In this document: positions 392-49,195 of the stretch, in pieces
Layout: every line of letters begins with the position of its first letter
How positions within the stretch are numbered: position 1 is the stretch's first letter
Source of the DNA: a virus
DNA: 50,338 bases
IMG/VR virus record: IMGVR_UViG_2209111020_000005
Coordinates: 1-50,338 of that record
Strand: one strand, 5' to 3'
Position numbers and translations under genes: made by a program
Notes under the pieces: model-generated
What the model was told of the DNA's origin: nothing
Databases searched by the model: none
Seen by the model: the letters and a program-made list of their open reading frames with translations, nothing else

Positions 392-1342
392 TTATGTATT
401 TTTTTCATCATCATTCTTTTGGTTATATACTTCTATAAAATGATAAACAAGAACTATTACCCAAATTACAGTTAAAAATGTGGGAATAATCGCTATCGAA
501 ATCATCGCAAATACATGACTGTCGAATATTTCTTGAAGAGCATCATTAACGCCATTGTAATTCAATGTTCCGCCAAGAATGAACAATGATAATAGCAATA
601 GCATAAACGATGAAAATACAACATTGTCCTTTAATAATTGAGGAAAACTCCTTTTGTCTGATGTTCTGCTAAAGTTTTGAGAAGCTATTACAGACACCCA
701 TTTCATTAGGAGAAATAGCATCGTAATTACACCGCCAGAGGTCAAACTAGAGAACATTAGTAACTTTCCAGTACTTACAGTATCAATATGTGAGAATACA
801 CTACTAATAGTTTGGAGACTACCCATTATTCCAACAATAATTCCTGTAAAAATACCTAATATAGAAACAAACTCAGTATATATTTTAACTTTGTTTTCAT
901 TTATTTTTTGTTTAATTACATCATTAGCTTCTACTTTAACAACCATCGTTGTTTTTCTTATATAATGTGATTGTACTATAGATAATTTTATATGGTCTCC
1001 AATTTTATTGATTGATTTTTGTAGCTTAATGTTAGGCTTAATCACGTTATCTAGTAAAATCTGAATATTCTCATCAACAACATCCATTTTTTCATCTACA
1101 GTATTATCCAGATCATCGTTGTTGATATCGTCATGAATATCATTACCATAGAACTTTTTATCGCTATAGATTAAATCTGAAATTAACGAGTATGGAATCC
1201 TTGTATCTTGATCAACAATATAATTTTGAAAAAAATTATTTATATTGTTTATTACTGTTTGAGAAGATTCGTTTAAATTACCCTTGTAAATTTCTTTGAT
1301 GATTTTTACAAATGGTTTAGCTGGAACTATTTTTCTTTCCAT
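392..1342 (-). CDS. Four-helix membrane protein, candidate Panacea-partner toxin
   Basis: The 316-residue protein has a charged, Asn/Asp-rich N-terminal half (about 1-150) and then four hydrophobic segments at roughly 160-185, 195-215, 240-260 and 275-300, ending in a charged tail. It has no motif I recognise. It is read from the same strand just after the Panacea-domain gene, overlapping it by 16 bp, so the two are probably translationally coupled. Panacea (DUF4065/SocA-like) proteins are established antitoxins paired with unrelated toxins, some of which act on the membrane; this protein is therefore inferred to be the toxin partner. The pair is clearly richer in A+T than the phage structural genes, consistent with separate acquisition. 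A plain lysogenic-conversion membrane protein is the alternative. Confidence 0.55.
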   Translation of the reverse strand: MERKIVPAKPFVKIIKEIYKGNLNESSQTVINNINNFFQNYIVDQDTRIPYSLISDLIYSDKKFYGNDIHDDINNDDLDNTVDEKMDVVDENIQILLDNVIKPNIKLQKSINKIGDHIKLSIVQSHYIRKTTMVVKVEANDVIKQKINENKVKIYTEFVSILGIFTGIIVGIMGSLQTISSVFSHIDTVSTGKLLMFSSLTSGGVITMLFLLMKWVSVIASQNFSRTSDKRSFPQLLKDNVVFSSFMLLLLSLFILGGTLNYNGVNDALQEIFDSHVFAMISIAIIPTFLTVIWVIVLVYHFIEVYNQKNDDEKNT

Positions 1343-1848
1343 ACTTGCTCATTCCTATTTTGAGTAAAATATTTTTCTATTTCGTTGTTGTCATATTGGA
1401 TATGACGAATACCATCATCTATTTTTGGCTTATCTTTACGCCACATAGGCTGCTTATGAGTCATCTTAACCAGGTCATATCCTTCAAATTTCAAAAGAGA
1501 TTCTATAATTGGGTTCAAATCATCTTTGGTTTGTTTTGAAATTGGGGATTTTTCAATACTAAAGTGAGATACGGTTAGACCCTTCTCAAAATCAAAGTCA
1601 ACCTTGTCTGGAACTGAATCAATATTTTTAGCCCCATATCCTTTATATTCTTGATATACTTTATCCACAACAGGACCAAGCTTCCATTTTTCAATCGAAT
1701 CCTCATATAAAATTTCTCCATGTTTAATCAAATTGTAAGCCTGCAAATAATACATAATTTTTTGTAACTGCAAATTGGTTATTTTTTTTCTAATAGCATT
1801 GGCATGCCAAACGACATAATCAGCGATGTCCTTAGCTTTGTATGCCAT
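1327..1848 (-). CDS. Panacea-domain (DUF4065/SocA-like) protein, candidate antitoxin
   Basis: The chosen ATG at 1848 follows AAGGTGATAATT; a longer frame exists to 1890 but lacks a ribosome binding site. The 173 residues show the Panacea pattern: an N-terminal 'AxDIADYVVWHAN' helix, the conserved segment ITNLQLQKIMYYLQA (about 23-37), and KWKLGPVVDKVYQEYKGYG (about 54-72), which is the hallmark 'WxxGPVxxxVYxxY' block. This family includes Caulobacter SocA and the broadly partnered PanA antitoxins, and also appears in phages (GepA-like). The gene overlaps the downstream membrane-protein gene, which fits an antitoxin-first toxin-antitoxin operon. Whether the pair belongs to the prophage or to the host flank is unresolved, because no attL was found. 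Confidence 0.75.
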   Translation of the reverse strand: MAYKAKDIADYVVWHANAIRKKITNLQLQKIMYYLQAYNLIKHGEILYEDSIEKWKLGPVVDKVYQEYKGYGAKNIDSVPDKVDFDFEKGLTVSHFSIEKSPISKQTKDDLNPIIESLLKFEGYDLVKMTHKQPMWRKDKPKIDDGIRHIQYDNNEIEKYFTQNRNEQVWKEK

Positions 1849-2074
1849 AATTATCACCTTTTCTGTATAAAAAAAGCACTCAATAACCAATCAGAAAAAT
1901 GTCTCCATAAATTTATCGGCAATAAGCGTTTCATTTTTAGTGTTTAATTGGTCAAATATTTATTACCCATTTCTATAATACATTATGTTGTCAATATACA
2001 TACAGTTATTTGATTCATTCTACAAGCCAGAAACGTGTATTATGTATCCCGGCATAGCCGGGTATTTCTTTATG
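1849..2074. other. AT-rich intergenic gap between lysis cassette and Panacea pair
   Basis: No gene was found here. A perfect hairpin CCCGGC-ATA-GCCGGG lies at 2048-2062, followed on the plus strand by TATTTCTTT; read leftward it lies just after the holin stop but lacks a T tract. This gap is one candidate for the left prophage junction; I found no convincing direct repeat with the region after the integrase gene. Confidence 0.4.
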
Positions 2075-3848: not shown

Positions 3849-4208
3849 ATGAGACATAAATCTCGATTAATTTTTGATATTGTACTTATATCCGCCGTCC
3901 TGCTCGGCCTTTTTTCATCGGCTTATTACGCTTTTGGAAAACCGCTATCCATGCGCCATGCGGTATACCGTGTCTTTAACGACAGGGTTGACCGCTATAG
4001 TGTTAGCAATAAAAAGCTAACCGTCGTTACCGACAATTTTGGCTGGGATGGATCCGGCTGGTCAAAAAAGCAGGCCATCCGAGATGGAAAGCGCCAGATT
4101 GAAAAGCTGACTTCCGTCCTCCCGGAATTTGGGCAGCAGATTGACCGGGTAGAAATAACGGTTACCTACCTGAAGCAGCCTGTAATGATGCAATCAATCG
4201 ATAATTAA
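3849..4208 (+). CDS. Membrane-anchored small protein, candidate moron
   Basis: Starting at ATG 3849 behind GGTGAT (a GTG three codons earlier is also possible), the 119 residues have an N-terminal signal-anchor (about 7-30, LIFDIVLISAVLLGLFSSAY) and then an extracytoplasmic domain. I recognise no family. The gene is the only plus-strand gene between the lysis and tail modules, so it opposes the transcription around it. It has a hairpin terminator just upstream and converges with the 69-residue gene, overlapping its stop by 4 bp. This is the setting of a moron expressed from the lysogen. TAAAAT at 3827-3832 could be its -10 box, but I see no good -35. Confidence 0.55.
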   Translation: MRHKSRLIFDIVLISAVLLGLFSSAYYAFGKPLSMRHAVYRVFNDRVDRYSVSNKKLTVVTDNFGWDGSGWSKKQAIRDGKRQIEKLTSVLPEFGQQIDRVEITVTYLKQPVMMQSIDN

Positions 4209-4414
4209 GGGCTGCCAGGCGGGCTGTCCGTTATCACTAATTCGCGCGTCTCAACCCCTATTAAAATTTTATCTCCTTGATCTATTGGCGCCGACTGCAT
4301 AATATACTGCGCCGCTTGATCAAAATCTGGAATATCCGCATATTCAATAGGTTTGTATCCGGCCAGCTTAGCTGAGTTTAGCTGTAAAATTCCGTTTTGG
4401 ATAATACCGTACAT
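4205..4414 (-). CDS. Small tail-region protein of unknown function
   Basis: The 69-residue protein begins MYGIIQNGILQLNS and contains 'GYKPIEYADIPDFDQ' and 'KILIGVETREL'. Similar short acidic proteins are common just after tail-fibre genes of Lactobacillales and Bacillales phages; their function is not known. The ATG follows AAAGGTGGTGAGCG and lies inside the 3' end of the reverse transcriptase gene (47-bp overlap), so it is co-expressed with the DGR. It lacks the basic, helix-bundle look of an Avd protein. Confidence 0.65.
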   Translation of the reverse strand: MYGIIQNGILQLNSAKLAGYKPIEYADIPDFDQAAQYIMQSAPIDQGDKILIGVETRELVITDSPPGSP

Positions 4415-5438
4415 TAACGCTCACCACCTTTCTTGCTATTTTAATTCGTGCCACCGGCTGGACGATGCAATGATAAAACTGATAGCTGTCCGTGCGTTTC
4501 AGCCATCCCCAGTGCGAGATCACCGCACAGGCGTCAGAATAATTGAGATAGCCTTTTTTCTGTATCTTGCTGACACGCCGCCGGATTCGCAATGAGTTAC
4601 GTTTTCGGAGCGTTGACTTATCCCGGTAAAAGCGGATGCCGAGAAAATCAATATCCCGACAGTCCAGGCGGAACACCTGCCAGTTACTCTTTATCTGCAG
4701 CTTAATGCCGGTGAGATACTCAGAGACTGCCTGCTGCGTCCGATGAAGTTTTTTCTTATTCGAACAAAGCATCACAAGGTCATCAACATATCGAACATAA
4801 TACTTAACCCCTAGTTGCTCCTTAATAAAATGATCGAGATCCTGCAAGAAAAAATTAGCGAACCACTGGCTGGTATAAAATCCAATTGGTTGGCCTTTGT
4901 TCTGGTCGATAATTTGATCAATAAGCCAGAGACAATCAGAATCTTTAATTAACTGACGGAACCGCTGTTTTAGTAGATCATTGTCAATTGACGGATAAAA
5001 TTTATGGATATCCATTTTTAGACAATATTTCGTATTTCGTCGGTCATTGTCTATCCACTTACGCAGCGATTTCTGCGCGTAACTTGTCCCTCGTTCGGGG
5101 ATGCTTCCGCAGCTGTACTCATACATGCCATGCATAATCATCGGCTCGAGTTGCAGCATAAGCGCCCAGTGGATGATTTGATCCGGATAAAAGTTCGGTT
5201 TATAAATCGTCCGCTCCTTTCCACTTGTGCCATCGTTGATAACCCTGATCTGCGGGGTGCTCGGTTGATACGTCTTAGCTTTAAGCATCTGCTGTAACTT
5301 GCCTGCGTAGCTGTCCGCGTTGTCTAATACTTTTTTAACCCGTTTCTGATTCCGCTTACCAAGCGATGCTTTCTGCATTGCGAGTTTAATATTCTCAGTG
5401 TCACAAACCTTTTCGTATATAAAGCCGTATCGTTTCAC
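4368..5438 (-). CDS. Reverse transcriptase of a diversity-generating retroelement
   Basis: The 356-residue RT copies the TR RNA into adenine-mutagenised cDNA that replaces VR. Motifs in order: KERTIYKPNFYPDQIIHW (about 75-92), DIHKFYPSID (about 143-152, first catalytic Asp), GQPIGFYTSQWFANFFL (about 182-198), which has the G-x3-SQ motif 4 typical of DGR RTs, and the YVDD catalytic box in YVRYVDDLVML (about 216-226). It has neither the maturase nor the endonuclease domains of group II intron proteins, and is the usual length for a DGR RT. The ATG follows AAGGTGATTCGCC. It lies about 120 bp after TR on the same strand, in the order target-VR-TR-RT seen in characterised elements. No Avd gene is recognisable next to it. 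Confidence 0.93.
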   Translation of the reverse strand: MKRYGFIYEKVCDTENIKLAMQKASLGKRNQKRVKKVLDNADSYAGKLQQMLKAKTYQPSTPQIRVINDGTSGKERTIYKPNFYPDQIIHWALMLQLEPMIMHGMYEYSCGSIPERGTSYAQKSLRKWIDNDRRNTKYCLKMDIHKFYPSIDNDLLKQRFRQLIKDSDCLWLIDQIIDQNKGQPIGFYTSQWFANFFLQDLDHFIKEQLGVKYYVRYVDDLVMLCSNKKKLHRTQQAVSEYLTGIKLQIKSNWQVFRLDCRDIDFLGIRFYRDKSTLRKRNSLRIRRRVSKIQKKGYLNYSDACAVISHWGWLKRTDSYQFYHCIVQPVARIKIARKVVSVNVRYYPKRNFTAKLS

Positions 5439-5560
5439 GGCGAATCACCTTCTTATTAGCCTCAAGGACTTTCGACAATACTACTTGTCCTTGCTCTTTA
5501 CGGCGAATTTTCACCAAGCGGTGCGGATGATAGGGTGCAATATATCTTTAAATTTCCTAA
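5439..5560 (-). other. DGR spacer between TR and RT
   Basis: This stretch of about 120 nt has no gene apart from the RT ribosome binding site. In the Bordetella phage DGR a similar-length spacer after TR is needed for cDNA priming; the position and size here suggest the same role, but I infer this from layout only. Confidence 0.45.
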
Positions 5561-5671
5561 TAAGAGTCTGCCTGCCGATATTGACATTCGAGTTCCACGA
5601 AGGATTGTTCAGATTCCAGTTAGACAATCCAGCGTTCAAACCATTGTTCCAGCCCGCGCCAACGCGGGCAA
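5561..5671 (-). repeat. DGR template repeat (TR)
   Basis: This 111-bp stretch is near-identical to the 3' end of the fibre gene (5761-5872), offset by exactly 200 bp at one end and 201 bp at the other. On the coding strand it is loaded with AAC/AAT codons (an Asn-rich virtual peptide GWNNGLNAGLSNWNLNN), which is typical of TRs because AAY codons diversify without creating stops. Over 5567-5671 all 18 substitutions relative to VR fall on TR adenines (18 of 25 adenines changed; about 80 other bases unchanged; counted by hand). One extra mismatch, C in TR versus T in VR on the coding strand, lies at the 3' edge (5566). TR has no ribosome binding site and is not itself a gene. Confidence 0.93.
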
Positions 5672-5719
5672 AGCACGCACCCCATAACCCGGTATTTATT
5701 TTTATACTCATCAAAGACC

Positions 5720-5741
5720 TTGGGGGACTTACGTCCCCCAA
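5720..5741 (-). other. DNA hairpin/cruciform downstream of VR
   Basis: TTGGGGGAC (5720-5728), a 4-nt loop (5729-5732) and GTCCCCCAA (5733-5741) make a perfect 9-bp GC-rich stem. It lies about 20-40 bp past the 3' end of VR on the coding strand and before TR. The Bordetella phage DGR needs a hairpin of nearly the same shape (8-bp stem, 4-nt loop) just after VR for efficient retrohoming. No T tract follows on the minus strand, so a terminator is less likely. Confidence 0.75.
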
Positions 5742-5759
5742 ACCCCCTAAAGAGCCTTC

Positions 5760-7502
5760 CTAAGAAGCCGCCCGCCGATAGCGACATACGAGTACCACGA
5801 AGGACCGGTTCAGAAGCCAGTCAGACAAGCCAGCGCCCAAACCATCGAACCAGCCCGCGCCAACGCGGGCAATAAACTGCCCAGAGGGATTTTGCCAGTG
5901 ATAGTCAGAGTAATAACTAGAATCGTTTCCGCCCAAGACAGTCGGCAACTGAACATAAGGATGATCTGGGTCAAAGCCCATGTCTTTAACAAATCCATTA
6001 GCATGTACATTTTCATAGCCGATGGATTCATAAGGACTGGCAAAAACGTTACTTGCATAGTCATCCGCATTTTTAGCAACCCATGACCTTCCATTGTTGA
6101 TATTTAATCCGTCAACAAACGTCCATGTACTACCAAACGGATTTTCAATTCCGCGATAGACGCATGGGTATTTCCCGTCGTTCGCTACTATTCCGCCGCT
6201 TTCTGCAAGGATATTTTTGCTAAATCCTGTTTTCCATCCGCCGTTGTAAACCACTTTCCCTGCCGATATATCTACCGGATCGCCATCAAAAATAAGGGCT
6301 TTGTTACTTGCGTCATAGTCCTCAATTGCCGTGATCGACCGGTCATAAAAAACCTGAACCCCGTTTACATCGTTTCCGATATTTATCGGCTGGCCTACTC
6401 GATAATTCTGCGCCCGACTACTTTCAATAATCGCCCGATTTGTCTGTGTTTCGCCAACTGTGATTACGTCACCATTATCTCGCCTGCCGCCCGTCCAACC
6501 AGCCAAAACCGACTGTGAGTTAAGCGTCGCAAATTCGGTATGGAAAAGTGTTGCTAAGATGTCATGTGCATGCAGGTCGTACTGCTGATAACCTTTTAAC
6601 CCGTTTATATTATTCGCGCGGGAATAATTTCGAAAATCAATGATATTTTTTTGCACAAGCGGGTACTTATCCGGTTTTGACTCCAGCTTGCCATCGGCGG
6701 ACAGCGAAGCTTTATGTTTCGCAAAATCAAAATAGTCAAGTTCCCTGCCATTTTCAAAATCCCAAAAACACCAGGGCAGATAAAAACCCGCATGCTTTGT
6801 CTCTGATACTTGTTCCTGCAAAAAGCCAGGTCCACTCTGCCGCCTGATATAAAATTTAGGTATCCGCCTAAACACGTTGCCATAACTATCCTTAGCGTCC
6901 TCAATCTCGCCCCAGATCGGTAGGTGGTCAAAATCGTTTTTCACCAGCTGACCATCTATGCCGACAGCCGACTGTAAGCCTACAGCAGAGTCCGTCCGCG
7001 TCATGGTCGGGCTTGCTGTTTTATCCCAGTAAGCTCCATAGATGGCCTCTTTATAGGTTAGTAGGTGGATACTATTAATCTTGTCGATCAGGTCGCTGAC
7101 ATACGCTGCAGACTCTGTATTGATGGTCGTTGCATCGCTTACTACCTTAAACGGAATATTAGGCGTAGACATGCGGGACGTTTTGCCAAACGTATCTGTT
7201 TTTTCAAACACAAAATAGGCTGTTCTGATATTGCCGAGCGTGGCAAAGGACTCCTTTACCAGCGTACACTCTACTTTCCCAGCAGCAGCATCTGTAATCG
7301 TCGCGCCTTGCCTGATATAGTACCAAGCTGGCGTGACGCACTCAAACAGGGGCGTGATCCCGGTCAGATCAACAGGAACGCCGTCCTGCATGATCTGAGC
7401 GCTAAATGTATTAGTATCAAAATCGTTTCTGCGGACCTCAATACGCGGAATATTGGCCCGACCGTTAAGGTCGAGCTTCATGCTGAAAACTTTATTAGCC
7501 AA
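5760..7502 (-). CDS. Receptor-binding tail fibre, DGR target (BppU-like N-terminus, lectin-fold C-terminus)
   Basis: I chose TTG 7502 (580 aa): GGAGG lies 9 nt upstream, while ATG 7481 is 28 nt away and the longer frame to 7583 overlaps the previous gene. The N-terminus (DLNGRANIPRIEVRRNDFDT onward, about 10-110) resembles the BppU/baseplate N-terminal domain that fixes the fibre to the tail tip. The last ~250 residues resemble the formylglycine-enzyme/C-type-lectin fold used by DGR targets, ending in the VR (IARVGAGWFDGLGAGLSDW). The protein would bind the host surface, and the DGR would vary its binding face. One extra base in VR shifts the last ~15 residues to SFVVLVCRYRRAAS; without it the frame reads PSWYSYVAIGGRLLRKAL and stops at 5747-5749, matching the conserved end of the fold. 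Confidence 0.85.
   Translation of the reverse strand: MANKVFSMKLDLNGRANIPRIEVRRNDFDTNTFSAQIMQDGVPVDLTGITPLFECVTPAWYYIRQGATITDAAAGKVECTLVKESFATLGNIRTAYFVFEKTDTFGKTSRMSTPNIPFKVVSDATTINTESAAYVSDLIDKINSIHLLTYKEAIYGAYWDKTASPTMTRTDSAVGLQSAVGIDGQLVKNDFDHLPIWGEIEDAKDSYGNVFRRIPKFYIRRQSGPGFLQEQVSETKHAGFYLPWCFWDFENGRELDYFDFAKHKASLSADGKLESKPDKYPLVQKNIIDFRNYSRANNINGLKGYQQYDLHAHDILATLFHTEFATLNSQSVLAGWTGGRRDNGDVITVGETQTNRAIIESSRAQNYRVGQPINIGNDVNGVQVFYDRSITAIEDYDASNKALIFDGDPVDISAGKVVYNGGWKTGFSKNILAESGGIVANDGKYPCVYRGIENPFGSTWTFVDGLNINNGRSWVAKNADDYASNVFASPYESIGYENVHANGFVKDMGFDPDHPYVQLPTVLGGNDSSYYSDYHWQNPSGQFIARVGAGWFDGLGAGLSDWLLNRSFVVLVCRYRRAAS
5761..5872 (-). repeat. DGR variable repeat (VR)
   Basis: This is the 3' end of the fibre gene and the partner of TR at 5561-5671. 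The 5' 23 bases on the coding strand are identical to TR; divergence is confined to template adenines, for example AAC to TTC, AAT to GAT, AAC to GGC and AAT to CTT. It is 112 bp against 111 in TR because of one inserted base near 5805-5808, where the coding strand reads AACCGGTCC and TR reads AACAATCC. The GC-rich block next to the stop codon is where an IMH (initiation of mutagenic homing) site would be expected. Confidence 0.93.
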
Positions 7503-7521
7503 TATTAAACACCTCCGATAC

Positions 7522-10500
7522 TTATGGCAATGAATCGATATTAACTTTCTTTTGGGCGGTTGCTGTATTTCCAATAAATCCATTTAGCGTGCCTGTACTT
7601 GTATCGATATAGCCCGCCGTGCCACGTGTCACATTGTTATTAAACGTCTGAATAGTCGGATCCGTGCCGGTAATCGAACAAGCGTAACCGCAATTATAAT
7701 CCGAAATAATATTATCGCTAAAAGTAATGCTTTTACATGTTGATTCGATAGCGCATGCCGCGTCTAGAGCAGGCGTCGGAGATTGAATGTTTGTAATGAT
7801 ATTTCTGGCCACAATCGTCTTTTCTACAAATCTCAACCACAGCGCGCCGAGCGATGATCCGTCTATAATATTTTCGGATATGATATTGTGACTCGTTAAA
7901 CCCGTATGTCTAATATCGGAAGGCGATTCCCACATAAAAATCGCTGTGGATTTTGACCATAAAAACTTATTATGTGTAATCGTGCCGTGCGACGAATAAC
8001 GAATGTCAAGAGAGTTTCTGTCCCACCGGAAAGCGTTCCCGCTGATATCATAACTTTCGCAGTATCTGATAATAAGAGAGATAGCCTGTGCATCTGATTC
8101 GCCACCGAACTGATTACCGCACACTCTAAAATTATAATTTTTATAGGCTACGTCGTTATAGGATATCCCTTGGATAGATACGGTGCCGTTGAAATACCCA
8201 AAACCATCAAAATAGTTGTCTAAAATACTGAAATTGTTTTGAAGATTAGGATCCCCGGGACCATAACCCGTACCATCAAATGTTGCAGCATAGGGATTGG
8301 AAAAAATATTAATGGCATAATTTTTTACACCAGAAAGAAACTTGTTATTTTTAATCACAAAATTAGAGCACCCGCGCAAATGGATAAAACCGCCCTGATA
8401 GTCATTATCACCCGGAGCATCGACGCCGTGAACATGTAGATTATTTTCAATATAAATATTGTAAAAAGGGCGATCACGTGTCTCCGCATGATTACCGATA
8501 ATATTGGGCGCCGGGTATTTTATGGATCCGTCGCTGTTATAGACTGGGTAGAATTCGCAGTTTTTGACCGTCACGTCATGGGTCGGTATGTTGTCCAGAC
8601 TGGCCGGATCGTTTGCCTGCGGATTGCCGGGCGATGGAGAATCGAGCTGAATGACCTCAGTAAAATAGCGGCCAGTTTGCGGTTTAAACCCATAAAATGA
8701 GCAATGGTCAACTACTACATGATCGCAGCCCATCAGGTCAAAGACATGTGCGTTAAACATGCATTGCTCAAAAATAACATTCCGACACGTGAGATGACTG
8801 ACGTGCGTAAAGGCCATTTTAACATCGACATTGTTGTCCAGGTTGCCCTTAAACCGGCCGCCCTCGATTAATACATCATAACCGCGATTTCCGTAACCAG
8901 TCTCCCCCTGACCGTTCATGTCGATGATATAACTAGCTGGCGCAAGAATAGTTGTTCCCGATGACAGTTTCAAGTGCATCCGGGAGCGTCCGATTAGCGT
9001 AGTAATCTTGTAAGTTCCATCCGGAATAAACGTTTCAAGGCCCTTTGCCGCGTTGTCATCAATGGCGGCCTGAATAGCCACCGTATCGTCCGTTACTCCA
9101 TCACCCTTTGCGCCATAATCGCGCGGCGTTGCTGCCACGTCTTGCGCGAAAAACGGAAGATAGGCATAAGTGCCCCGGCGTTTCCCATCAACCGGAACGC
9201 GCAGCGTCTCAAACATCGGCTTATAGGTCCCACTTCCGTTCGGTTCGTCAAAGGACAGAAAGTCCGCGCTGTTCAGATTAAGCGAGAGGCCCTTCTGCCG
9301 GTTGATGCCCGAATACAGCGGGGAAAGATTTCCCATGTCGACATTGTCTTTATAAAATTGTAGGTTTCCCTCACGTAAAATGGTTTTGTCCGTTCCATCC
9401 GCCGATCCCGTTATTTCAATTCTATCTGAATATACTTTAATATCTGTTCCGATAATACTGGCGTCATGAAATGTAATAGTGCCATCTTGAGCAATGCTCA
9501 TTTTCTCAACGCCGTTCTTTATCGCACGAACGCCGTTTCCGTCGATCCATACATCAAAGTCGCTTTTTTTCATGTGGAAACCGTTTCCATCAAGCCAGAT
9601 GTCCATACCGTTGCTACTGATGTGGATGGACGCACCCTCGATATCGCCGCCGCTGATCGACGCGCCAAAAGTATTGACGGCACCACTTTTATCCACCTGA
9701 AAAACTTTAGCGCCACTTTTAGTCATAACAAGACCGTCACTGTTCAAACGGGCATCAAAGCCTGTCAATTCGTTAAAGACATGAAAGTCCACGCCCTCGA
9801 CAAGGATGCCACGCAAGACGCCGGCAGTAATAAAGTCAGCAACAATCTCACCGTCGGATGTCATGGCAAGACCATAGGGTCCGTTGACACCCGTTGACGA
9901 ATAGCCAAGCCCGCTGAGGTTCCACCGCCATACTTTATGCGCTGTATCTACATCTTCTGTATCCATGATTAAAAATTCCTGTGGCTTGTCCTTTGGCCTG
10001 AAAACAACATGTCCGCCTAAATTTCCAGTAATCAAGTCTGTAGCATGGTCAATAGCTTCTTGTAAAAACGTTTTCTGATCGTCTACTTTTTGGCCAATTT
10101 CTTTATTGTTGTCAGCAATGCTTTTTGTAATGTCATATCGGGCATCACCGATATCAACAACCGGACTTTCGGCAGGATTAAACGGGTTATCCGTTTGAGC
10201 ACTGATACGGACAGATAGATCCAGATCCATGCCGTCCTTGTCATAGATGCACCAGATAAAATCTCCAACCTCATATTGATGCACCGGCAATCCGTTTTTA
10301 TAGAGCTCTTCCAATTCAACACGTGCGCTATAAGAGCCTTCGTTAAGCTGAGATTCTGCGTACGCCGTCAGAGAGTCTTCAACCGTGAAGCGTTCATCCT
10401 GCACAGAGGTTTTATAGATTCTCTCAAATTTGTCCCAGTTCGGCGATCTGACGGTTACTGAAACGATCGGGTTTCCATCATCATCATTTTTTCCTTTTGC

Positions 10501-48019: not shown

Positions 48020-49195
48020 ATGCCATCGTACCAGAAATATGATACAAAACAGGGTAAGCGGTGGATGTTCAAGGTTGACCTGGGACCAGATCCCAAAACC
48101 GGCCGACGCCGGACAACGACGAAGCGCGGATTTTTGCACAAACCGGATGCAGAAATGGCGTGCCGTAAATATCTTGAGATGGTTCAAAATGGTATCAAAG
48201 TAAACAGCAACATTGTTGTTAAAGAACTGATTGAAAAATGGATTGATATCTATGGAAAATCTGACAAGCGCCGACCCCAAACTGTGACCGTGATGAAAAA
48301 TCGTGCCAAACATATTAGTAAAGCATTGGGGTACATTAAAGTCAAAGATCTTTCTCATTATGAATATCAAAAATTATTTTACCAGCTTAAAGATAATGGA
48401 TTAAGTAAAAATACACTTGAGGGCATTCGTACAGCAGGAAATATGGTTTTCATGTTTGCCGTTAAGGAAAAAATAATCGAACGGGACAAGAACCCAGCAT
48501 TGGATATTGAACTTCCCGCCTTCCCTGTTGACGTTGCCGATCAAGAAGAAAAGATTAAAAACAGCTACTTTGAGCGTTTCGAAGTTGATGAATTTCTGCG
48601 GGCTGCCAAACAGTCGAAAAGAGAAGACATGTACCAGATTTTTTTCACACTCATTTGGACGGGCATACGTCTAGGCGAGCTAGTTGCCTTAAGGTGGGAT
48701 GATGTGGACTTTGAAAACCATGAAATCCATATCAGGAGAACTTACGTCGAATCTACCAGAAAAGAGAATGCGCCAAAAACAGCTTCGTCGATCCGCACCA
48801 TTAACATAGAGCCGGAATTAGAGTCTGTGTTGCACAGTCAGCACGCTAAAATCAAAGAACTGAGCATCACTTACCCAATTCTAAAAAATAATATATTCGT
48901 TTTTCCACAACTTAAAAAAGACTTTATTGGAAAGCAATATACCGAAAATGCCATTTACCATGAAATGCTTCATGCAAATGACAGATGTTCTTTTAAAAAG
49001 CGGCTGACACCTCATAAATTGCGTCATACGTTTACGTCCTTAGCTGCTGAGGCTGAAGTCCCGCTTGATGATATCCGGGCGATGCTTGGACACCACGACG
49101 ACGAAATAACGAGAAAAGTTTATGAGCATGTAACTAAAAATCGAAGGAAAAAAATGTCGCACAAATTCGGCGAATTCATGCGACAAGATCAGTAA
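48020..49195 (+). CDS. int: Tyrosine-recombinase integrase
   Basis: The 391-residue integrase has an N-terminal arm-binding AP2-like domain (about 1-60: KRWMFKVDLGPDPKTGRRRT). A SAM-like core-binding domain follows (about 65-165), and then a catalytic domain with the R in WTGIRLGELVALRWDD (about 212-227), HKLRHTFTSLAAEAEV (about 331-346), GHHDDEIT (about 354-361) and the Tyr in VYEHVT (about 367). It integrates and excises the prophage. As the last phage gene it places the right junction within the next 150 bp. Confidence 0.95.
   Translation: MPSYQKYDTKQGKRWMFKVDLGPDPKTGRRRTTTKRGFLHKPDAEMACRKYLEMVQNGIKVNSNIVVKELIEKWIDIYGKSDKRRPQTVTVMKNRAKHISKALGYIKVKDLSHYEYQKLFYQLKDNGLSKNTLEGIRTAGNMVFMFAVKEKIIERDKNPALDIELPAFPVDVADQEEKIKNSYFERFEVDEFLRAAKQSKREDMYQIFFTLIWTGIRLGELVALRWDDVDFENHEIHIRRTYVESTRKENAPKTASSIRTINIEPELESVLHSQHAKIKELSITYPILKNNIFVFPQLKKDFIGKQYTENAIYHEMLHANDRCSFKKRLTPHKLRHTFTSLAAEAEVPLDDIRAMLGHHDDEITRKVYEHVTKNRRKKMSHKFGEFMRQDQ

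Follow-up and report, generated by a model that had tools for sequence, protein, structure and literature searches.

An extra base in the variable repeat of a prophage DGR and its probable effect on the receptor-binding fibre

Described DGRs and the DGR of the window

The diversity-generating retroelement (DGR) of Bordetella phage BPP-1 (mtd/avd/TR/brt) diversifies a phage tail receptor-binding protein. Its variable repeat (VR) lies at the 3' end of the target gene and carries A-specific changes, the template repeat (TR) and VR show IMH-like terminal differences, a hairpin is located downstream, and TR is followed by the reverse transcriptase (RT). Published DGR hairpins have a GC-rich stem of 7-10 bp and a 4-nt GRNA loop, and homing has been used to regenerate KanR (PMC3240598). 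The RTs of the DGR clade are defined by the motif (I/V/L)GxxxSQ, and the accessory protein is not known to be required by every DGR (PMC3521204). In BPP-1-based assays homing from an intact TR restored gapped reporter VRs, including an 18-nt restoration (PMC12875486). The same study, published in 2026 on a reconstituted BPP-1 DGR, proposed that in AC contexts RT uses the preceding template cytosine a second time; according to this slippage model the register must be restored afterwards, otherwise insertions arise (PMC12875486).

We analyzed a virus record from IMG/VR, 50,338 bases long and referred to below as the window. It contains a standard DGR at 4368-7583 on the minus strand, composed of a BppU-type fibre gene, VR, TR and an intact RT. 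The fibre (receptor-binding protein) gene, which is the DGR target, occupies 5760-7583 (minus strand) and encodes 607 aa as it is now read. Its N-terminal domain belongs to the BppU family (Pfam PF10651, 1.2e-18) and the protein matches the tail protein family phrog_5302 (5e-44). The VR (5761-5872, minus strand, 112 nt) covers the 3' end of this gene and exceeds TR by one base in length, while the TR (5561-5671, minus strand, 111 nt) has no indel against the register of its relatives. We looked for a second copy of VR or TR across the record and found none, so it holds one TR/VR pair.

The RT gene (4368-5438, minus strand) encodes 356 aa with an RVT_1 domain and a YVDD active site, and it aligns in one frame to DGR relatives. 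The clade-defining motif is present as IGFYTSQ. Downstream of VR, at 5720-5741 (minus strand), there is a hairpin or cruciform with a 9-bp GC-rich stem and the 4-nt loop GTAA (z -3.9). Stem and loop length fit the consensus, but GTAA differs from GRNA at the second base; loops also vary among close relatives. No Avd-like (Avd/HRDC-type) accessory gene was recognised among the ORFs neighbouring the DGR, and its activity is therefore not assured. A 69-aa ORF (4205-4414, minus strand), for which no Pfam match was found, lies directly 3' of RT.

The locus resembles the BPP-1 DGR in its tail receptor-binding target, the position of VR, the A-specific changes, the IMH-like terminal differences, the downstream hairpin and the order of TR and RT. 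It differs in the BppU N-terminal domain, the lack of a recognised Avd-like gene, the GTAA loop and the net +1 of its VR. Closer relatives were found in an IMG/VR prophage (2579778851_000002, loci L003/L008) and in Salirhabdus/Alkalihalobacillus (L046/L047). Their RTs are about 65-70% identical to that of the window and their fibres about 50-71%, the gene order is kept, and TR and VR are 111 nt long. In contrast to the window, their VRs are in frame and their proteins end in GGRLLKK(A/P)L, with the stop codon 11 nt past VR. The RT of the Lactobacillus phage LBR48 DGR is about 55% identical to that of the window. In the fetched LBR48 locus (L021) the ungapped A-tolerant scan gave no TR/VR pair, and the related Levilactobacillus targets have ends of the KKALG/RRALV type, unlike the window.

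Judged by its gene content, the record reads as an integrated prophage, and the phage is temperate and probably of Bacilli. It contains a structural module, a holin and a GH25/LysM lysin. We take the ORF at 48020-49195 to be integrase-like and the ORF at the right end to be a host-like hydroxyacid dehydrogenase, both named from sequence and general knowledge. Beside the lysis genes, at 392-1890 (minus strand), there are two low-GC (0.33) ORFs, one for a SocA/Panacea-domain protein and the other for a membrane-like protein; together they may form a moron pair of the antitoxin type. A near-identical phage or host whose VR is intact was looked for. Megablast against phages gave no match, and the closest relative has approximately 70% DNA identity. 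There was no strong match in 398 Bacilli genomes except an already known relative (G002), and none among the 34 genomes of the family to which the best host-gene match belongs. Therefore a direct comparison with a sister phage or host was impossible.

The extra base and the reading frame of the fibre

The alignment of TR with VR requires one additional base in VR, where TR reads AACAATCC and VR reads AACCGGTCC, and the TR-VR offset goes from 200 to 201 within it. A preliminary description of this DNA had reported the longer VR and the change of offset; the alignment confirmed both, and every coordinate given there was correct. The extra base lies at 5805-5808 (minus strand), where VR has CCGG and TR has CAA. 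Its exact placement within CCGG is ambiguous, as four placements tie by substitution count. Nineteen substitutions separate the repeats, 18 of them at TR adenines and one, a C>T, near the 3' end of VR. Adenines were thus changed at 18 of 26 positions and other bases at 1 of 85 (Fisher p about 1e-13), a bias which indicates that TR, VR and their mutagenic history are real. As VR has no non-adenine substitution apart from the terminal C>T, it appears freshly homed.

In the present frame (7583-5760) the fibre ends with SFVVLVCRYRRAAS, and the frame is altered in the last codons, 3' of the extra base. This ending, FVVLVCRYRRAAS, falls inside VR, and its stop codon (5760-5762, minus strand) is placed at the VR end. 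The neighbouring frame reads PSWYSYVAIGGRLLRKAL and closes with IGGRLLRKAL and a stop codon at 5747-5749 (minus strand), 11 nt past the VR end. Translation confirmed both the present ending and the neighbouring-frame stop, as had been proposed. The proteins of close relatives end in GGRLL(K/R)K(A/P)L, in most cases with the stop 11 nt beyond VR. The neighbouring-frame stop of the window is at exactly the same distance as in most of them. Downstream of the lesion the TR adenines occupy codon positions 1 and 2 when read in the relatives' frame, which is the TR-matching one, and positions 2 and 3 when read in the present frame; the AAY codons of TR sit in the relatives' frame, not in the present one. 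The relatives' ending, the distance to the stop codon and the codon positions of the adenines together identify the present frame as the departure. We keep the placement of VR at the 3' end of the target; the +1 alters the frame of this one allele, marks it as broken and is not evidence against DGR membership.

Related DGRs were fetched via fibre and RT, and their TR/VR pairs were located by the ungapped A-tolerant scan. After removal of duplicates there were 98 distinct VRs. Two loci (L033 and L034) with a 285-nt interruption of TR were left out, and so was a genome survey with phrog_1423, which mostly matched other RTs, probably those of group II introns. The targets of the related DGRs stay open to the VR end. 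We did not observe a small TR-VR indel or offset change in any of the 98 distinct related DGRs. Fibres that naturally end in the present frame, which the preliminary description had named as evidence against a lesion, were looked for and not found (0/98), and this candidate was rejected.

Several relatives had peculiarities of their own. In IMGVR 2773857802_000001 (L013, 3300-4700) the fibre gene has a frameshift between SPWG and DLWQF, upstream of its VR, which ends in VGRLLKKRS; this is a second broken DGR target, with its lesion beyond the reach of homing. An uncultured Clostridia bin (L057, 6001-7021) has a DGR RT region that cannot be translated in a single frame (17 stops), although the TR/VR pair is clean. 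Three TR/VR-like pairs were found in one locus (L107, 2964-3374), apparently tandem copies of VR or TR.

In the two loci left out (L033, IMGVR 3300028832_001274, insert at 4486-4770; L034, IMGVR 3300028048_001397) an identical, structured insert of 285 nt interrupts TR at the same place (fold z -3.7). Both VRs are contiguous across the insert junction. They carry 20 and 17 substitutions, respectively, all A-specific and with no other change, and differ from each other at 23 positions. The sole difference between the two TRs is located 7 nt upstream of the insert, and there the VR of each locus agrees with the TR of that locus. Another locus (L182, about 7475-7729) carries a homologous insert in an unrelated position, and an Rfam search with the insert gave no credible match. 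The arrangement suggests an intron-like RNA that may be removed (spliced) from the TR RNA before reverse transcription.

Predicted structure of the fibre tip

In the Thermus aquaticus variable protein TaqVP (PDB 5vf4), as in the fibre family of the window, VR forms the C terminus of a C-type-lectin (FGE-type) fold; the protein context of TaqVP differs from that of our fibre. AlphaFold models were made of native translations only. For the intact relative L003, which is 71% identical to the fibre of the window, mean pLDDT was 80, and the last strand of the model spans residues 435-438 in a block with pLDDT of about 81. It matched TaqVP with Z 20.3 over 268 residues at 3.3 A (VIA-align) at only about 18% identity, PvdO with Z 9.6 and Mtd (1yu3) with Z 7.5. 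All three matches run up to residue 439 or 440, the last residues of the relative. By the modelled fold of this relative at 71% identity, the fibre tip is a C-type-lectin-fold DGR variable protein.

The tail of the window's own fibre is not confidently folded in the model. There, pLDDT was 26-35 over the last 40 residues and no strand was predicted in the last 35. The hypervariable loops of the L003 model were also of low confidence, so the low pLDDT of the window's fibre is supporting evidence and not proof. Based on these models we infer that the window allele has lost the final conserved beta-strand of its lectin-type fold, a strand which TaqVP has. The earlier suggestion that the fibre is probably defective is thus well supported: a frame conserved by relatives is broken, none of the 98 ends in the present frame, and the model has no C-terminal strand. 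Function is probably lost at adsorption.

Origin of the extra base and its possible repair

We give a probability of roughly 0.58 to the following account as a whole: homing by the RT produced the +1 VR, the fibre tip was lost with it, and TR and RT are able to reset the lesion. An ordinary DGR would act on a BppU-type tail fibre and diversify its lectin-type tip. In the latest mutagenic homing the RT would have mutated a pair of adjacent adenines of the template and read a neighbouring base twice, most simply the C of AAC, without regaining register, and a +1 frameshifted VR would be the outcome. Through the frameshift the receptor-binding fold would lose its final conserved beta-strand, and the allele would probably be dead for adsorption. 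It could persist because a lysogen has no need of the fibre, and the next homing event would overwrite it, since TR, IMH, hairpin and RT are intact.

The DGR's own RT probably made the error; it is the likeliest source of the lesion, and one which the preliminary description had not considered. In the order of cDNA synthesis, RT first meets the adenine pair of AAT, next the C, and after it the adenine pair of AAC. VR is explained with the fewest steps if RT changed both AAT adenines, copied C twice and then copied the next adenines faithfully. With moderate confidence, VR looks like the published slippage event with the register left unrestored. The location of the insertion is weak evidence for an RT origin, since about a quarter of the VR positions adjoin a mutated adenine (estimated from the site list). 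Against slippage, there is no second +1 among the 98 relatives and the placement of the insertion is not unique. That VR is a natural footprint of slippage by the DGR RT, in which a single base of the template was read twice next to mutated adenines, is put forward tentatively, as a possibility that we somewhat doubt.

The main rival explanation attributes the extra base to an error in sequencing or assembly; the real VR would then be in frame. We regard it as a serious possibility, although not the probable one. VRs are polymorphic in populations, and the join of a consensus or a bubble can add a spurious base; the lesion sits in the one segment expected to differ between molecules, the source is a single IMG/VR record without reads, and the 98 related DGRs have no small TR-VR indel. 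On the other side, no other frameshift was seen when the structural-module genes were aligned to a 45-kb relative, the site of the extra base is not a long homopolymer, and VR otherwise departs from TR at adenines and at a single terminal base, nowhere else. If the base is an artefact, the case calls for caution in reading VRs from assemblies.

The +1 could also be younger than the homing event and independent of the RT, if replication of the idle prophage introduced it by a common error or by slippage. An unselected locus in a lysogen gathers lesions, and the fibre of L013 is frameshifted outside VR. This origin is nevertheless unlikely: VR has no random substitution beyond the terminal C>T and no other gene is broken in comparison with the relative, so there is little neutral decay, and the lesion adjoins two mutated adenines. 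Hardly credible at all is that programmed +1 frameshifting restores the frame, or that the altered C-terminus serves as a second, functional state of the fibre: the neighbouring frame still encodes the relatives' ending, but no recognised shift-prone motif was seen by eye at AAC CGG TCC, no relative uses the shifted frame (0/98), the alternative tail is predicted to be disordered, and programmed ribosomal frameshifting was rejected for lack of conserved use.

Homing overwrites VR with a copy of TR, and TR, RT, IMH and hairpin look intact, which makes a repair of the lesion by this route plausible. The preliminary description had suggested such a repair route. In our analysis the suggestion appears sound but is not new, as homing has already been shown to restore missing VR bases in other DGRs.

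If the base is real, it represents a natural cost of targeted hypermutation: the AAY design spares the frame, and loss of register still destroys the product. It would give the slippage hypothesis, which comes from a reconstituted system, a counterpart in nature, and how often lysogens contain frameshifted alleles open to re-homing would be simple to measure. If it is in addition a footprint of slippage, DGR RTs would intrinsically make frameshifts as well as substitutions, a certain share of the receptor alleles in lysogens would be dead at any time, and re-homing from TR would routinely reset them.
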